Assembly: GCF_030060925.1 (NCBI RefSeq)
Contig: NZ_CP045455.1
Coordinates: forward strand, 1-64,000
Direction of reading: 5' to 3'
DNA from: Spiroplasma sp. SV19
Lineage (GTDB): Bacteria > Bacillota_I > Bacilli_A > Mycoplasmatales > Mycoplasmataceae
DNA: 64,000 bases
This document shows, piece by piece, positions 46,656-58,210 of this stretch. The position numbers and the translations under genes were made by a program. Every line of letters starts with the position of its first letter. The stretch's first letter is position 1. Under the pieces are notes generated by a model. That model did no database searches. It was given only the letters and a program-made list of their open reading frames with translations, and was not told the origin of the DNA.

Positions 46656-48554
46656 ATGGGAGAATCAGTGGCGACAAAACCAAATAAATTTACCACATGA
46701 TTAAATAACAAATTTATTCCTACTGTTGGAAAAATTGGAAACCAGACGCACTTATCAATTATTCGGGATAGTTTTGCTTTAATTACGCCGTTACTAATTG
46801 CAGGAGCCTTAGCTGTGTTTATTAATCAAATTATCTTAGGTTCAAGTGTTATTTCATTATCGTATTGGATTGCTTATTGAAGCAAAATGTACGATGGTTT
46901 TGAGGGCGATAACATTATTTTTTTACCTAACGCTCTGAAGGCACTTGATGCCTTACGATCTGTTAATGGGGTAATTTGAAATGCTTCATTAATGGTAATG
47001 ACGTTATATATTGTTTTTCTAATTGGTTATTTATTAGGAAAACGCCGTGGGCAAGATCCAGCAATTATGGCTGGAATTGTGTCATTTGCAACTTTTATTG
47101 TGGCGGGAGCTGGAATTGCTGGCTGAGAGTTTGCACAAAAATTTATGGGCGCTGAAGGGTTGTTTTCGGGAATTATTATTGCCTTTTTAAGCGCAGAATT
47201 ATTTATTTTTTTACAACGCAATAATCGTTTAGCGATTAGAATGCCAAAAAACGTCCCGCCTGCCGTTGGTCATGCTTTTGCCAAATTATTACCAATGATT
47301 ATTACTACTTTTTTGTTTGGAATTGTATCGCAATTATTAATTTGAGCACCAATTGAATACACGGTGATTGATCAATTCAACCAAGAATTTATTAAACAAG
47401 ATAATTTTGCAGGAATTTATCGAAATACCCACGGTGAAATGTTTCAATTATTAAATGGAACTTTACAACCATTAACTAATGCTCAAACTGCATTGGTAAC
47501 AAAAATTGAATATTTAACAATGACTGCTAATCCAATGTGAGGGGAATTTGGTCCGTTGGATAAAATTACAACAGAACCAGAATATAGTGCTTTTAATACA
47601 AATTTTAAAGCCTTAACATTAGTTACTTTAATTTATAAATTTTTCACATATCCCTTTATGAACGCAGCATCTAATCCCAATGTTGGATTAGGATTTGCCT
47701 TATTATATATTTTATTTGTTTCAATTTTTTGATTCTTTGGTTTACATGGTACAAACATTATGAATGGAATTTTTGCGCCAGTTTGATTATATGCAACAGC
47801 ACAAAATTCAATTGCTTTTAAAGCAGGACAAAACTTACCATTTATTTTTTCACAAGGATTTTTTGATGGATTCATCTTTTTAGGGGGATGAGGAATGTCT
47901 TTAGGGTTATTACTGATTACTTTAATTATGGGACGCGATAAACAAGCACGAGCTATTTCAAAAAGTTCAATTGCCCCCGGAATATTTAACATTAATGAAC
48001 CAGTAACCTTTGCGTATCCCTTAATTTTAAACCCCGTGATGGCAATTCCAGCCATTATTGGGCCATGTTTACTAGTAATTTGAACCTGATTTTGAATCTC
48101 AACTGGTGTTGTGCCCGGCGCAGCATTATTAATTCCATGGGTCGCACCGGTGGGAGTAGGAGCCTTTATTACAACAGGAAGCTGAAAGGGAATTCTGTTA
48201 GCCCTCTCAAATTTAATATTAATGGCTATCCTTTATATTCCGTTCATTTTTATTGCTAATAAAATTGCAAAAAATAATGATACCGCTGTTTCGCTTAATT
48301 ATTTAGGACGAATTCAATTCTTGTTTACTGGTCGTAATTATGCCGAACCACAAGCAAAAGAATTACGTCTTCGTCAACGTGCTGAATTAAAACAGAGTTT
48401 AAATCCACAAGAACGTCGTGTTCTCAAAGAACGTTATCGTAATGAATGAAAAACTTTACATAATGAATTAGTAACAAAATATCGCCAAATTCGCAGTGAT
48501 AAAAAAACTGCACGGCAATTAGCAAAAAAAGATCGTAAAACAAAAAAAGAATAA
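46656..48554 (+). CDS. celB: PTS cellobiose/diacetylchitobiose-type IIC permease, copy 1
   Basis: A 632-residue membrane protein. NQTHLSIIRDSFALITPLLI starts the membrane domain, HGTNIMNGIF carries the conserved His region, and FNINEPVTFAYPLILNP matches the NEP signature of the lactose/cellobiose IIC family. The usual length is 430-460. The excess comes from a segment between membrane helices (residues about 240-320, with GEMFQLLNGTLQPLTN) and a charged helical tail of about 90 residues (KELRLRQRAELKQSLNPQER). AAAGGAGTTGATTTAATT precedes the ATG. Beta-diglucosides or chitobiose are likely substrates; the exact sugar is not determined. Confidence 0.9.
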
Positions 48555-50870: not shown

Positions 50871-52769
50871 ATGGGAGAATCAATCGTAAGAAAGCCGAGC
50901 AAATTTACAACATGAATTAACAACAAATTTATTCCTGTTGTTGAAAAAATTGGGAATCAAACCCACTTGTCGATTATTCGAGATAGTTTTGCGCTAATTA
51001 CCCCGTTATTTATTGCGGGGGCTTTAGCTATCTTTATTGATCAAATTATCTTAGGTTCGAGTGTTATTTCATTATCGTATTGAATTGCTTATTGAAGTAA
51101 AATGTATGAGGGTTTTGATGGGGATAACATTATTTTTCTATCTAATGTTGGAAAGACATTTGATGCTTTAAAATCCGTTAATGGAGTAGTTTGAAACGCT
51201 TCATTAATGGTGATGACATTATATATTGTCTTTCTAATTGGCTATTTATTAGGAAAACGGCGCGAACAAGACCCGGCAATTATCGCTGGAATTGTCTCTT
51301 TTGCAACTTTTATTGTGGCGGGAGCTGGGATTGCTGGTTGAGAGTTTGCACAAAAATTTATGGGGGTAGATGGTTTATTTTCGGGAATTATTGTTGCCTT
51401 TTTAAGTGCAGAATTATTTATTTTTTTACAACGTAATAATCGTTTAACGATTAGAATGCCAAAAAATATCCCTCCTGCCGTTGGCCATGCTTTTGCTAAA
51501 TTATTACCAATGATTATTACCACTTTTTTGTTTGGAATTGTGTCGCAATTATTAATTTGAGCACCAATTGAATACACGGTAATTGATCAATTCAAGCAAG
51601 AATTTATTAACCAAGATAATTTTGGGGGAATTTATCGAAATACCCACGGTGAAATGTTTCAATTATTAAATGGAACTTTACAACCATTAACTAATGTTCA
51701 AACTGCATTGGTAACAAAAATTGAATATTTGACAATGACCTCTGATTCAATATGAGGGGCATTTGGTTCGTTGGATGAAATTACAACAGAACCAGAATAT
51801 AGTACTTTCAATTTAAATTTTAAGACCTTAACATTAGTTACTTTAATTTATAAATTTTTTACATATCCTTTTATGAATGTTGCCGCTAATCCCAATATTG
51901 GGTTAGGATTAGCCTTATTATATATTTTCTTTGCCTCAATTTTTTGATTCTTTGGTTTACATGGCACAAACATTATGAATGGAATTTTTGGTCCAATCTG
52001 ATTATATGCGACAGTTCAAAATTCAATTGCTTTTAAAGCGGGTCAAAATCTACCATTTATTTTCTCCCTAGGATTTTTTGATGCCTTTATTTTTTTAGGA
52101 GGATGAGGAATGTCGCTGGGATTAATTCTTATTACCTTAATTATGGGACGCGATAAGCAAACACGTACTGTTTCAAAAAAATTAATTGTACCAACAATAT
52201 TTAACATTGATGAACCAGTAACCTTTGCATATCCGTTATTTTTAAACCCTGTGTTGGTAATTCCAAGCATTATTGGCTCGCTCTTATTAGTAATTTGAAC
52301 CTGATTTTGAATTTCAATTGGCGTTGTGCCCGGTGCAGCATTATTAATTCCATGAATGGCTCCGGTCGGAATTGGTGCTTTTATTACAACAGGCAGCTGA
52401 AAGGGCATTATTTTAGCGTTTTCAAATTTAATTTTAATGGTTGTTCTTTATATTCCATTTATTTTAATTGCTAATAGAATTGCAAAAAATAATGGTACCA
52501 CTGTTTCGCTTAATTATTTAGGACGAATTCAATTTTTGCTTATTGGTCGTAATTATGCTGAACCACAGGCAAAAGAATTACGTCTTCGTCAACGGGTTGA
52601 ATTAAAACAGAGTTTAAATCCACAAGAACGTCGTATTCTCAAAGAACGTCATCGTAATGAATGAAAAACTTTACATAATGAATTAGTAGCAAAATATCGT
52701 CAAGTTCGTCATGACAAAAAAAGGGCACGACAATTTGCCAAACAGAATCGAAAAACAAGTAAAATTTAG
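50871..52769 (+). CDS. PTS cellobiose-type IIC permease, copy 2
   Basis: A 632-residue paralogue of the permease at 46656-48554, identical in length and highly similar throughout. It includes the same internal segment and the same basic C-terminal tail (KELRLRQRVELKQSLNPQER). One difference lies in the sugar-binding signature: FNINEPVTFAYP in copy 1 is FNIDEPVTFAYP here. The membrane helices and NQTHLSIIRDSF are kept. AGAAAGGAAATAATTTAGTT precedes the ATG. No IIB is attached; it would have to share the IIB at 46317. The frame is intact with many TGA codons, which argues that it is functional. Confidence 0.9.
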
Positions 52770-52790: not shown

Positions 52791-52818
52791 TTTACAATTA
52801 AAATCTTTTTGGTATTAT
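52791..52818 (+). promoter_or_regulatory. pyr operon promoter
   Basis: TTTACA (52791-52796) and TATTAT (52813-52818) with a 16-base spacer. It lies 22 bases before the leader ATG. An upstream AAAAAAAGTCTTTTTT stretch may end transcription from the IIC gene. Confidence 0.5.
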
Positions 52819-52839
52819 ATATTATTAAGGTGATAGTAA

Positions 52840-52989
52840 ATGCAAATGAGAAAGTTAAACAACTGTGCTAAAAATAAAGGTAAACATCGTCTGCAACGAG
52901 TTCTTACTTTTCTTTCTCATTTGTTCTTAAGTTTATTTTATCCCCATCATTTTAAAACTTACTTAATTAATTGGAATTTATCTTATTAA
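52840..52989 (+). CDS. pyrL: Leader peptide of the pyr operon (49 residues)
   Basis: An open frame of 49 codons beginning MQMRKLNNCAKNKGKHRLQR, with ribosome binding site AAGGTGA (52827-52833) six bases before the ATG. Its middle codes for VLTFLSHLFLSLFYPHH, which makes the RNA from about 52899 to 52953 a pyrimidine-rich, U-rich tract. The stop codon (52987-52989) lies inside the 3' arm of the terminator at 52955-53006. This is the layout of the enterobacterial pyrBI attenuator, where a ribosome close behind RNA polymerase blocks the terminator when UTP is scarce. The gene name is by analogy; sequence similarity to the E. coli leader is not claimed. Confidence 0.7.
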   Translation: MQMRKLNNCAKNKGKHRLQRVLTFLSHLFLSLFYPHHFKTYLINWNLSY

Positions 52990-53006
52990 TTAAGTAAGTT
53001 TTTTTT
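52955..53006 (+). terminator. Attenuator terminator of the pyr operon
   Basis: AAACTTACTTAATTAAT (52955-52971) pairs perfectly over 17 bases with ATTAATTAAGTAAGTTT (52985-53001), followed by a run of T to 53006. It stands between the leader peptide and pyrB and overlaps the last 12 leader codons. A small hairpin TCGT-CTGCA-ACGA (about 52888-52900) just before the U-rich tract could pause RNA polymerase. Confidence 0.85.
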
Positions 53007-53042
53007 ATGTTCAAAATAGTGATAGAAAGTGAGAATATTGGA

Positions 53043-53924
53043 ATGAAAAGTAAAAGTCTTTTTAATTTAGATGATTGAAATCAGCAAGAAGTTAATAATT
53101 TTTTAACAGAAGCTTTGCAATTTAAAAATAATGTTAAAAAAGTTGATTATCAGCAACGAAAAATTGTTGCAAACTTATTTTTTGAACCTTCAACACGAAC
53201 ACATTATTCGTTTGATGTTGCTGCTCATAAATTAGGATGTAAAACATTAAACTTTAATGAACAATTTAGTGCGACAAAAAAAGGGGAAACATTATATGAT
53301 ACCATCAAAACTTTCGAAGCATTAGGGGTTGATGCCTTAGTAATCCGCCACCCAGAAAATAATTATTATAATGCTCTAATTGATAAAATTAAGGTTCCCA
53401 TTTTAAATGGAGGTGACGGTTCGGGAAATCATCCAACGCAAAGTCTTTTAGATTTATTAACAATTAAAGAACAATTTGGTGAGTTTGCTGGTTTAAATAT
53501 TATTATTGTTGGTGATATTAAGTACTCTCGTGTTGCAAAAACTAATATTCAAATTATGCAAAAATTAGGAATGAATGTTTATACAACAGGAATTAACGAA
53601 TTACAAATTCCGGGAGTTGTAAGTGTTGATTTTAAAGCGAATCTTCCCAAAATGGATGTTGTGATGTTATTGCGTTACCAATTTGAACGTTTTGCAGATA
53701 ATGAACAATACCATTTAGATTATTTACATAATTATAAATTAACATCTGCCTTAGTTGCGACAATGAAACCAACGGCTATTATTATGCATCCAGCACCATT
53801 TAACCGTGGGATTGAAATCGATGATGATGTTGTTGAATGTAAACAGGCAAAAATATTTGAGCAGATGACTAATGGTGTTTTTGTGCGAATGGCATTATTG
53901 AATAATATTTTAAGTACTAACTAA
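53043..53924 (+). CDS. pyrB: Aspartate carbamoyltransferase catalytic subunit
   Basis: A 293-residue enzyme joining carbamoyl phosphate and aspartate. The carbamoyl-phosphate loop FFEPSTRTHYSFDVAAHKLG is near residue 45, ATKKGETLYDTIKTFEALG the Ser/Lys loop, HPTQSLLDLLTI the next block, and MHPAPFNRGIEI the C-terminal signature. The start ATG at 53043 gives the normal N-terminus SLFNLDDWNQQEVNNF with Trp from TGA; the ribosome binding site is weak. No regulatory subunit gene is present, as in Gram-positive bacteria. Confidence 0.95.
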
Positions 53925-53925
53925 A

Positions 53926-55194
53926 ATGATTTATACTTTTACTAATGCTAAGGTGTACTTGCCAACTGGTTTTCAACAAACAAATATTACAATCGAAGAT
54001 AATAAGATTATTCAAATTGGGTCTAAAGTGCTAGGGACAGAAATCAAATTATCACCAACTTGTATTATTGTGCCAAGTTTTATTGATTTACATGCTCATT
54101 TTCGTGAACCTGGTCAAACAGATAAAGAGGATTTAGTAACTGGCGCCCTAAGCGGACTATACGGTGGTTATCAGACGGTTTGTGTGATGGCAAATACCAT
54201 TCCCGTTATTGACCATCCTACAGTTTTAGCCCCATTATTAATGAAAGCAAAAAAAATTCCAATTAATATTCAGTTTTTCAGTGCGATTACTAATAATTTA
54301 GCAGGTCAAAAAGCAGTTGATTTTGCTAGTTTTGGTGAAGATGTTATTGGCTTTAGTGATGATGGGGTCTATTTGGCTAACCAAGCCTTATTAATAACAG
54401 CCTTAAAATATGGTCAAGCTAATCATAAATTAGTTTCATTGCATGTTGATAACCGTCATCAATTAACATCAACAACAACGATACTAAATCACGAAGTTGC
54501 CAAAAGATTTAATTTAACTGGAGTTGATAAAGACTATGAAGTAGGTTCATTAAGCCAAGATTTAACAATTGTTAATCAACTGCGACTGCCATATCATCTA
54601 TGCCATCTTTCTACGGCCGAAAGTGTCGCTTTAATTCGAGCGAGTAAAACAATTAACCCATTTTTAACTTGTGAAGTAACTCCACATCATTTAACCTTAT
54701 CAACTGATGATATTTTAATGAATGATGGGAATTACCTAATGAATCCACCTTTAAATCTAAAAAGTGATCAATTGAGTCTAATTGCGGCTTTAAATGATGG
54801 AACAATTGATGTCATTGCAACAGACCATGCTCCACATCAAACAACAGAAAAAGGGTTGTTTGCAACTAGTGCAATGGGAATCATTGGTTTGCAATTAACT
54901 TTTCCGGTACTATATACAAAGTTAGTTCAACCACAAAAAGTGTCATTAGCAACAATTATTAATGCTTTAACAGTTAATCCCCAAAAGTTAATCCACCATC
55001 ATGATGTTCAATTAAAAGTTAATAATCAGGCTAACTTTACGATAATTGATTTAGCATTAACCCAAATGGTAACTAGTAAATTATTAAAATCAAAAGCAAC
55101 AAATACTCCTTTTTTAGGGACTGTTTTAACTGGTTGACCAATTATGAATGTTCATAATGGGACAATTCATCATTTAAATGAGGAAGGAACATAA
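53926..55194 (+). CDS. pyrC: Dihydroorotase
   Basis: A 422-residue metalloenzyme of the Gram-positive PyrC type. The zinc site DLHAHFREPGQTDKEDL is near residue 55, VSLHVDNRHQL and PYHLCHLSTAESVALI supply further metal-region residues, TCEVTPHHLTL the next His pair and IATDHAPHQ the catalytic Asp. The C-terminus is LTGWPIMNVHNGTI, where TGA is Trp. One base separates it from pyrB, indicating coupling. Confidence 0.95.
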
Positions 55195-55197
55195 CTA

Positions 55198-55968
55198 ATG
55201 GAAAAACAAATAATTGAAACAACAACATTACTAGTAAATGAACAACTAGGACCTGATTTATGACTAGCAACTTTTAAAGCACCCCGCCTTAGTAAAATTG
55301 CTCAGCCAGGTCAGTTTATGCTAATTGAACCATCACAACAATTCTTCTTAAAACGACCATTTAGTTTTTTTGATATTAACGCCAAAGCAGAAACAATTGC
55401 GGTTTATTATCAAAATAAAGGCTTGGGAACTTGATTTATGGCAAATAAATGACTAATTGGTCAAGCCGTTCAGATTCAAGGTCCGCATGGTCAAGGCTTT
55501 CAAATTACTAAGGAAACGGATGATTTGTTAATTGTGGCGGGAGGAATTGGCATTGCGCCAATGAAAGCCTTAATTGATGATTTAATTACAAAGAAAGTTA
55601 AGTATACGGCTATTTTTGGGGGGCGAACAAAAAATGCGCTTAATGTTTTGTCCTTATTTCAAGATAATACCCGGTTTTTATTAAATACTGATGATGGAAC
55701 AATTGGCCAACAACAAAATATTATTGTGGCATTAGAACAATATTTAGAAACACATCAACCACAAATGATTGTGGCATGTGGACCAGAAGTTGCTTTAACA
55801 AAAATTAATCAAATTGCAAAGGAAAATCGCATTACAACCCAAATTTCTTATGAAAGTCATATGGCTTGTGGGGTTGGTGCATGTATGGGTTGTACAAAAA
55901 CAATTGATGGAACTAATAAAAAAATTTGTACTGATGGCCCCATTATTACTGTTAAATATGACAAATAA
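55198..55968 (+). CDS. pyrK: Dihydroorotate dehydrogenase electron transfer subunit
   Basis: A 256-residue flavoprotein with an iron-sulfur cluster. The FAD-binding domain holds PGQFMLIEPSQQFFLKRPFS, the NAD domain LLIVAGGIGIAPMKALIDDL, and the C-terminus the 2Fe-2S ligands CGVGACMGCTK...CTDGPI. PyrK passes electrons from type 1B PyrD to NAD. It begins three bases after pyrC. Its value depends on PyrD, which is interrupted downstream. Confidence 0.95.
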
Positions 55969-55985
55969 AAAGGAGAATGACAAAG

Positions 55986-56912
55986 ATGTTAAAAACAGAG
56001 TTTTTAGGGTATAACTTAAATTCCCCATTAACAACCGCAAGTGGTACCTTTGGCTATGGTGAATGTTATCGAGATTTTTTTGATGTAAGTGAATTGGGAA
56101 TGTTAACAACAAAAGGGATTACATTAGAACCAAGACCAGGAAATGCTTCCCCACGTTTAGCTGAAGTGACGGGGGGCATTATTAATTCAATTGGATTAGA
56201 AAATCCGGGCTTAAAATAATTTCAGACAAAAATTGTTCCAACTTTTCAAGCTTTTCAAATTCCAATTGTTGTTAATTTAAATGGTAAAACAATTGAAGAA
56301 TATGAAATGTTAGCAAAAGTAATTAACGATATTTCAGTTATTGCTTTTGTTGAATTAAATATTTCTTGTCCAAATGTAAAAGAGGGGGGAATTTTATTTG
56401 GTACTGACCCCGTTATTACACGAGAAATTGTAAAACGAGTACGTCAGGTTTTAACAAAAAAGAAATTAATTGTTAAATTATCACCATCAGTTACTGATAT
56501 TAAGCGTTTTGCTCTTATTTGCCAAGAAGAACGAGCTGATGCGATTAGTTTAATTAATACAATTCCGGCAATGCAAATTGATCTTAAGACAAAAAAACCA
56601 ACCTTAGGGAATATTATTGGTGGTTTGAGTGGTCCTTGTATTAAACCAATTGCGGTTCGCATGGTTTATGAGGTTGCTAGTGTTGTTAACATTCCAATTA
56701 TTGGGATGGGTGGTGTTAGTTCAACAAATGATGTTTTAGAATTTTTAATGGCTGGTGCGCGGGTGGTTGCTGTTGGAACTAGTTTATTTTCAAATCCTAA
56801 TTTAGTAACAGAGATTAAAACAGGACTATTAGAATATTGCCAACAGCATCAGTTAAATAATATTAGTGAGATTATTGGAGTTGCTCACCAAAAGGAGGGA
56901 GAAGATGAATAA
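55986..56912 (+). pseudogene. pyrD: Dihydroorotate dehydrogenase (type 1B) interrupted by a TAA
   Basis: The frame encodes about 308 residues of a PyrD-B enzyme: SPLTTASGTFGYGECYRDFF, TTKGITLEPRPGN, the catalytic Cys in ELNISCPNVKEGG, GLSGPCIKPIAVRMVYEV and the FMN-binding GMGGVSSTNDVLEFLMAGA. It is interrupted by an in-frame TAA at 56217-56219, in GLENPGLK-stop-FQTKIVPTFQ. Homology continues in the same frame. A TGA (Trp) there would give LKWFQTK, so a single G-to-A change explains the stop. AGGAG ends 10 bases before the ATG at 55986; the ATG at 55977 is too close to it. Confidence 0.9.
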
Positions 56913-57600
56913 AGTTTTTATTGCTTGTGATTTTAATTCACGCGAACAGTTAACAGCTTTTTTAGCAAAATTTCCCCCACAACCATTAGCATTGAAATTG
57001 GGAATGGAATTAATTTATGCTATTGGTTTTGAAATTATTTCGGAGCTGAAACAACAAGGTCATACTATCTTTTTAGATTTAAAATTAAATGATATTCCTA
57101 TTACAGTTGAAAAAGCATTAACTGCATTAAAACATTATCAAGTTGATTTTGTAACAATTCATTTAACAAGTGGCCAAAAAACGTTACAATTAGCCCATAG
57201 GATTGTTCAAAATACTAACATTAAATTATTGGGTGTCACAGTCTTAACTAGCTTAGATAATATGGATGTACAAGAAATGTTTTTATCATCAACATTGACA
57301 ACAAATGAGCTAGTTAAAAATTTAGCTAAAATGGCTGCTAATAATTGTTTTTATGGGGTTATTTGTGCACCATCAGAAGTAACAGTTATTAAACAACATT
57401 TTCCAAATTTAAAGACAGTAACACCAGGAATTCAATTAACATCAGATCAAACAGACCAAAAACGAGTTGCAACCCCCTTAACAGCAAAAAAATTAGGAGC
57501 CGACTATTTAGTCGTAGGGCGAGCAATTACAATGGCAGTTGATCCTGTTGCAGCTTATCAAGAGATTTTAACGATTTTTACAAAAGGAGCAGAAATATAA
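56905..57600 (+). CDS. pyrF: Orotidine 5'-phosphate decarboxylase
   Basis: A 231-residue enzyme that makes UMP. FIACDFNSREQLTAFL starts the barrel, IFLDLKLNDIPITVEKAL holds the catalytic Asp-Lys-Asp charge network (DLKLNDIP), and TPGIQLTSDQTDQKRVATP with GADYLVVGRAIT binds the phosphate. AAAGGAGGGAGAAG stands directly before the ATG, which overlaps the pyrD stop by eight bases. The upstream open frame is inside pyrD. Confidence 0.95.
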   Translation: MNKVFIACDFNSREQLTAFLAKFPPQPLALKLGMELIYAIGFEIISELKQQGHTIFLDLKLNDIPITVEKALTALKHYQVDFVTIHLTSGQKTLQLAHRIVQNTNIKLLGVTVLTSLDNMDVQEMFLSSTLTTNELVKNLAKMAANNCFYGVICAPSEVTVIKQHFPNLKTVTPGIQLTSDQTDQKRVATPLTAKKLGADYLVVGRAITMAVDPVAAYQEILTIFTKGAEI

Positions 57601-57601
57601 A

Positions 57602-58210
57602 ATGAAAAAAATTATTACTGAATTAGTTAATATTAAAGCAATTAATATTAATACAACGACACTATATACATGAGCATCAGGCATTAAATCGCCAGTTTAC
57701 ATTGATAATCGGTTAATTATGGGTTATCCACAGTTGCGATGGGCAATTGCTCAGGAATTTGCTCATATTATTCATTCTAAATTAGCAGGAATTAAGATTG
57801 AAAATATTTTTGGCACCGCCACAGCAGGAATTCCACACGCTACTTTGCTGGGGCATTTATTGCAATTACCATTTGGATATGTTCGTAGTAGTAAAAAAGG
57901 GCATGGTAAACAAAATCAAATTGAAGGTGTTTATCAACACGGTCAACGCGTAATTGTGATTGAAGACTTGATTTCAACGGGTGGGTCAGTGCTTGAAGTT
58001 GTTAAAACATTGCAGCAAGCAGGAATGGAAGTTGTTGCCGTCTTAGCGATTTTTAGTTATCAATTACAAAAAGCGATAACCAAATTTAATAGATTACAAA
58101 TTCCATTATATATTTTAACTAATTTTGATACATTAATTGCTAATACCGATATTTTAACAAGTGAACAACAAATAATGTTACAACAGTTTCATGAACAGTT
58201 AAACCAGTAG
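57602..58210 (+). CDS. pyrE: Orotate phosphoribosyltransferase
   Basis: A 202-residue enzyme adding PRPP to orotate. SGIKSPVYIDNRLIMGYPQL is the N-terminal signature, GTATAGIPHATLL the substrate region, YVRSSKKGHGKQNQIEGVY the flexible loop, and VIVIEDLISTGGSVLEVVKT the PRPP-binding motif. It begins one base after the pyrF stop with no ribosome binding site. Last gene of the operon; no hairpin terminator was found immediately behind it. Confidence 0.95.

Follow-up and report, generated by a model that had tools for sequence, protein, structure and literature searches.

The window, the whole 64,000-nucleotide stretch of Spiroplasma sp. SV19 that was analyzed (genetic code 4, TGA = Trp), carries a pyr operon whose first gene, pyrB, is preceded by a short open reading frame (ORF), a pyrimidine-rich tract, and an intrinsic terminator. 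The features of this region are as follows:

52791..52818, +, promoter-like site, TTTACA and TATTAT separated by 16 nt, with TG ahead of the -10 element (from sequence)
52827..52834, +, leader Shine-Dalgarno (SD), AAGGTGAT; SD then ATG in 6/6 intact pyrB leaders
52840..52989, +, leader ORF of 49 codons, MQMRKLNNCAKNKGKHRLQRVLTFLSHLFLSLFYPHHFKTYLINWNLSY
52842..52854, +, 5' strand of a start-closing helix in the predicted fold, GCAAATGAGAAAG
52887..52899, +, small 4-bp hairpin, TCGTCTGCAACGA
52900..52945, +, pyrimidine-rich tract, putative NTP-sensitive slow zone and anti-start strand
52912..52924, +, 3' strand of the start-closing helix in the predicted fold, CTTTCTCATTTGT
52954..53006, +, intrinsic terminator, arms 52954-52971 and 52985-53002, U-run to 53006
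53026..53033, +, pyrB SD, AAAGTGAG
53043..53924, +, pyrB, aspartate carbamoyltransferase (NF002032 and TIGR00670 above cut-off)
53926..58210, +, pyrC, pyrK, pyrD, pyrF, and pyrE, the remaining operon genes

The -35 and -10 elements resembling the promoter-like site align in most g1 relatives. An ATG at 53007 was rejected as the pyrB start, as it is unaligned in relatives, whereas the SD and start for 53043 do align. The window pyrD contains an in-frame TAA at 56217-56219, after 80 codons, and is uninterrupted in four relatives (G001, G003, G005, and G010); the stop may reflect a sequencing error or a decaying de novo pathway in this strain. Just upstream of the operon lies a cluster in which near-identical lactose/cellobiose-type PTS IIC genes (46656-48554 and 50871-52769) stand on both sides of an agmatine deiminase gene.

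Examination of the leader bore out most of the anatomy described in the initial annotation, which had likened it to the enterobacterial pyrBI leader: a well-started 49-codon frame, with its SD, passes through the tract and ends ahead of pyrB at a stop codon (52987-52989) lying within the 3' arm of the terminator. The terminator stem is perfect, as claimed, and measures 18 bp rather than 17. The tract reaches 78% C+T over 55 nt, a value found in none of 15,851 same-size coding windows of the 64-kb window, and its T content is reached by 0.6% of such windows. The hairpin at 52887-52899, proposed as a pause element, proved weak, with 4 bp, and too small to weigh; its G010 version, TCTTCTGCAAAGA, is a compensated variant. 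Folding pairs the leader start region with its own tract in a helix longer than this hairpin, and in the predicted fold the helix continues upstream across the leader SD and ATG. A 49-codon open frame in a single AT-rich sequence is by itself not improbable; it is conservation that carries the case.

Conservation of the leader and a second locus at uraA

Genes for pyrB of the window type occur in only six family genomes (75-100% identity), and the leader frame, tract, and terminator are kept in all six, across two genus-level groups, as the earlier reading of this leader predicts for relatives. Each of these leaders combines an SD and ATG with a 39-53-codon ORF, which runs into or past a terminator, and with a stretch rich in pyrimidines. 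The nucleotide difference is 26-47% for the pyrB leaders vs 17-26% for pyrB (closest pair omitted), and the leader frame is still held, in a comparison that rests on six pyrB leaders and in which between-clade alignments are unreliable. In neutral simulations of the four relatives with greater divergence, each taken separately, 15-28% of runs retained an open frame. The terminator arms show compensated changes in G003, and G096 has a different 19-bp stem. The pyrB of G096 is 75% identical to that of the window, against 45-48% for other members of its genus group, and the pyr operon may on this evidence have moved between genus groups. A contig scan with PyrB as query returned Geomicrobium as the only match. 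In a seventh genome, G002, pyrB is a pseudogene, most of the leader is gone, and the terminator is retained, which fits joint decay.

The observation is wider than the initial annotation stated, as the same design also stands before the uracil permease gene. A scan of 464 kb of the window genome (G000) for started ORFs that enter a terminator closely followed by a gene returned, besides pyrB and L33, a sole match, a 40-codon leader before the uracil permease gene (uraA; TIGR00801 above cut-off, best model NF007995, uracil permease). Extended to 131 terminators before genes in 864 kb of G000 and G018, the scan yielded leader ORFs at pyrB and uraA in G000 and at uraA in G018, with no further credible leader among these terminators. 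Three other matches were removed: L33, a real ribosomal protein gene; a lipoprotein ORF, which is part of another gene; and an out-of-frame ORF read as lying in L27. Within the family, 42 of 60 genomes carry the uracil permease gene, and open uraA leaders of 20-43 codons were found in 34 genomes, one of them (G022) from another family; the stop codon mostly lies a few nucleotides from the terminator 5' arm and in others inside the hairpin. As upp and pyrG of the genus carry no leader of the pyrB/uraA kind, the design marks, within the sampled DNA, both ways of supplying UMP, its de novo synthesis and the import of uracil. In G007, the uraA leader is broken (SD GAGG to TAGG, nonsense after codon 7) and the uraA frame is open, making this leader a natural test case for loss of uraA expression. 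A lost frame beside a kept terminator, which the initial annotation had counted against its own reading, is thus seen both ahead of the G002 pyrB pseudogene and ahead of the open uraA frame of G007.

The claim that no PyrR anti-antiterminator is present was upheld by a search for the RF00515 PyrR site, which gave no hit at gathering level in the window and, for the pyrB and permease loci, none even at E ≤ 0.5. Likewise, no PyrR gene was found in the genus, where the closest family matches fall far below cut-off and a PyrR from a Spiroplasma relative used as query gave zero matches. Five relatives carry a family-confirmed PyrR, and RF00515 precedes pyrR-pyrB above the gathering score in G116 and G161, which serve as positive control for the search, and below it in G176 and G099. 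A uraA leader is found in one of four PyrR-bearing genomes with uraA and in 32 of 35 PyrR-less genomes with usable uraA upstream sequence, a contrast that is suggestive only, the genomes being related; G181 and G187 have neither PyrR nor a uraA leader.

Selection on the leaders and pairing of the start region with the tract

The analysis of the uraA leaders in two clades gave pN/pS values of 0.90 and 1.00, and no stop codon arises in them, whereas only 4/2000 and 0/2000 runs of simulated neutral drift at the variable sites kept every frame open. One leader, that of G158, reads ATT where other members read ATG. This pattern indicates that translation of the leader, which we infer from the SD, start, and frame conservation, is preserved, whereas the peptide sequence is not kept, an argument against both arrest by a specific peptide and sensing of an amino acid. 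Ratios of the pN/pS type are somewhat lower in the pyrB leaders, where the tract and terminator also constrain bases. Maximum-T windows are raised over 18 leaders (Fisher 2e-5); the U-richness is modest in some clades, and the g2 leaders have a single short U-run and are not T-rich.

The complementarity of start region and tract was assessed by permutation, since variation within clades was too shallow for covariation of the helix to be counted formally. In a set of 19 leaders drawn from different clades, pairing of the starts with their own tracts is overall stronger than with permuted ones (z = -6.05, P = 5e-6), compared with a mean z of +0.48 (sd 0.83) in 60 control sets of ordinary SD-bearing genes. 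Shuffling the dinucleotides of the tract gave a concordant result (Fisher 5e-7). The pairing does not hold in G161 or G060, and the pyrB leader of G003 shows it weakly. In pyrL of E. coli K-12, the SD CGGGAGGA has its complement, TCTTCCCG, within the U-rich tract (P = 0.01), and in one Klebsiella pyrL most of this pairing is kept in the predicted fold (P = 0.13); judged from these sequences, SD-tract pairing is possibly an unrecognized part of the classic pyrBI attenuator. A literature search found no earlier description of start-tract pairing, which is not proof of novelty.

A candidate mechanism and its alternatives

Taken together, these leaders probably act as translation-coupled attenuators of the pyrBI type that raise pyr expression when pyrimidine nucleotides are scarce, with a second copy governing the uracil permease. 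We infer UTP and CTP as the signal, the slowing of the polymerase, and the gating by the helix, and the closing of the start is perhaps a part of the attenuator. Under this model, transcription would begin just upstream of the leader SD. With UTP (and CTP) plentiful, RNA polymerase would cross the pyrimidine tract fast and the transcribed tract would fold onto the leader start region and close it, so that no ribosome would follow close behind and the terminator would form before pyrB. With UTP low, polymerase would slow in the tract, and a ribosome would initiate first and then trail it, its footprint covering the terminator 5' arm and letting polymerase read into pyrB. The decision would thus lie in whether a ribosome loads before the polymerase has crossed the tract. 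Weighing against this model are the short distances from stop codon to terminator, the g2 leaders that lack T-richness, the leaders in which the helix is weak or absent (G161, G060, and pyrB of G003), the broken G007 leader before an open uraA, the genomes with neither PyrR nor leader (G181 and G187), and the in-frame stop in pyrD. In its most specific form, a single pyrimidine tract would do two jobs, as an NTP-sensitive slow zone and as the anti-SD strand, and the UTP level would decide which comes first, the loading of a ribosome or the completion of the tract; this arrangement would serve pyr and uraA across Spiroplasma-group Mollicutes and perhaps E. coli pyrBI too. We advance it tentatively, as a serious possibility.

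The nearest alternative is classical pyrBI coupling alone, in which a ribosome loaded beforehand gains on a polymerase paused in the tract, and the helix has no role or acts only as a pause hairpin. In its favor, the anatomy of the leader is like that of E. coli pyrL, where a leader ORF overlaps a U-rich stretch and UTP alters coupling (PMC3641672), and polymerase-ribosome complexes have been described in cells of Mycoplasma pneumoniae, as related in PMC7858274 (O'Reilly et al. 2020). Against it stand the start-tract pairing, which is specific to these leaders, and the spacing of terminators. Among the terminators examined in G000 and G018, the median stop-to-terminator distance is 11-14 nt, and about half are ≤12 nt; such short distances are a signature of uncoupled transcription in B. 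subtilis (PMC7858274) and suggest that trailing ribosomes usually leave terminators undisturbed here. This abutting of terminators on stop codons favors either control at initiation or an absence of coupling, and a gate at the start would suit an organism with terminators close behind its stop codons. Coupling without the gate is on this evidence unlikely, a minority reading.

Less probable again is a leader in which a protein or ligand, and not UTP, acts on the SD-closing helix to gate initiation, with the tract pyrimidine-rich solely for pairing with the purine-rich SD. The complementarity of tract and start region and the modest U-richness of some clades would suit such a gate, whereas no sequence or structural motif beyond SD, ORF, tract, and terminator is common to the clades, and the Rfam search gave neither a riboswitch nor a PyrR match.

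An amino-acid attenuator of the trp/leu kind could draw on the abundance of Phe/Leu codons near the tract, but it is disfavored to the point of being very improbable: a codon run common to the clades is absent, an antiterminator pairing with the terminator 5' arm is not conserved, the targets are pyrimidine genes, and the stop codon lies at or inside the terminator instead of >20 bp ahead of it. In E. coli, amino-acid attenuators have their terminators >20 bp past the end of the leader gene, and pyrBI has its terminator within that gene (PMC4824070). We also disfavor, as scarcely credible, the reading of the ORF as a constitutively expressed small-protein gene that has a terminator to itself, with pyrB served by a separate promoter, since despite a strong SD and start the ORF overlaps the terminator, the peptide is unconserved between clades, and the 36 nt that separate terminator and pyrB hold no promoter-like site.

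If the attenuator reading is true, pyrimidine-nucleotide sensing through a translated leader arose outside the enterobacteria, in Mollicutes mostly without PyrR, and these leaders are a genetically simple system, provided by nature, for reading out transcription-translation coupling in relatives of bacteria that are considered to transcribe without it. The pairing of start and tract, moreover, makes a prediction that can be tested in E. coli pyrBI.

Comparison with known attenuators

The closest known system is the enterobacterial pyrBI (pyrL) leader, which likewise places a short ORF with a good start across an intrinsic terminator immediately ahead of pyrB, with a U-rich tract preceding that terminator and, in E. 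coli, sequence pairing of the SD CGGGAGGA with TCTTCCCG in the tract. The likeness is one of design only: the Spiroplasma leader belongs to an AT-rich Mollicute and is unrelated in sequence, and sequence comparison found nothing shared with the enterobacterial pyrL leaders. As the leader sequences and proteins are unrelated to pyrL, the independent origin of UTP sensing that the initial annotation had proposed appears plausible; a literature search of partial coverage found no report of pyr attenuation in Spiroplasma, in keeping with its statement that none was known. The Mollicute leaders further differ in that the ORF end ranges from the 5' arm to past the terminator, the start-tract pairing recurs across leaders, the design also stands before uraA, and the UTP response is proposed by analogy.

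In the PyrR/RF00515 attenuator of Bacillus and some relatives, a leader terminator controls the same genes, whereas the window genome has neither a PyrR gene nor an RF00515 site and carries a translated leader instead. The trp, his, and leu attenuators share with the proposed mechanism a translated leader peptide that decides termination; they differ in their regulatory codon run and antiterminator, both lacking here, where the ribosome itself would cover the terminator.
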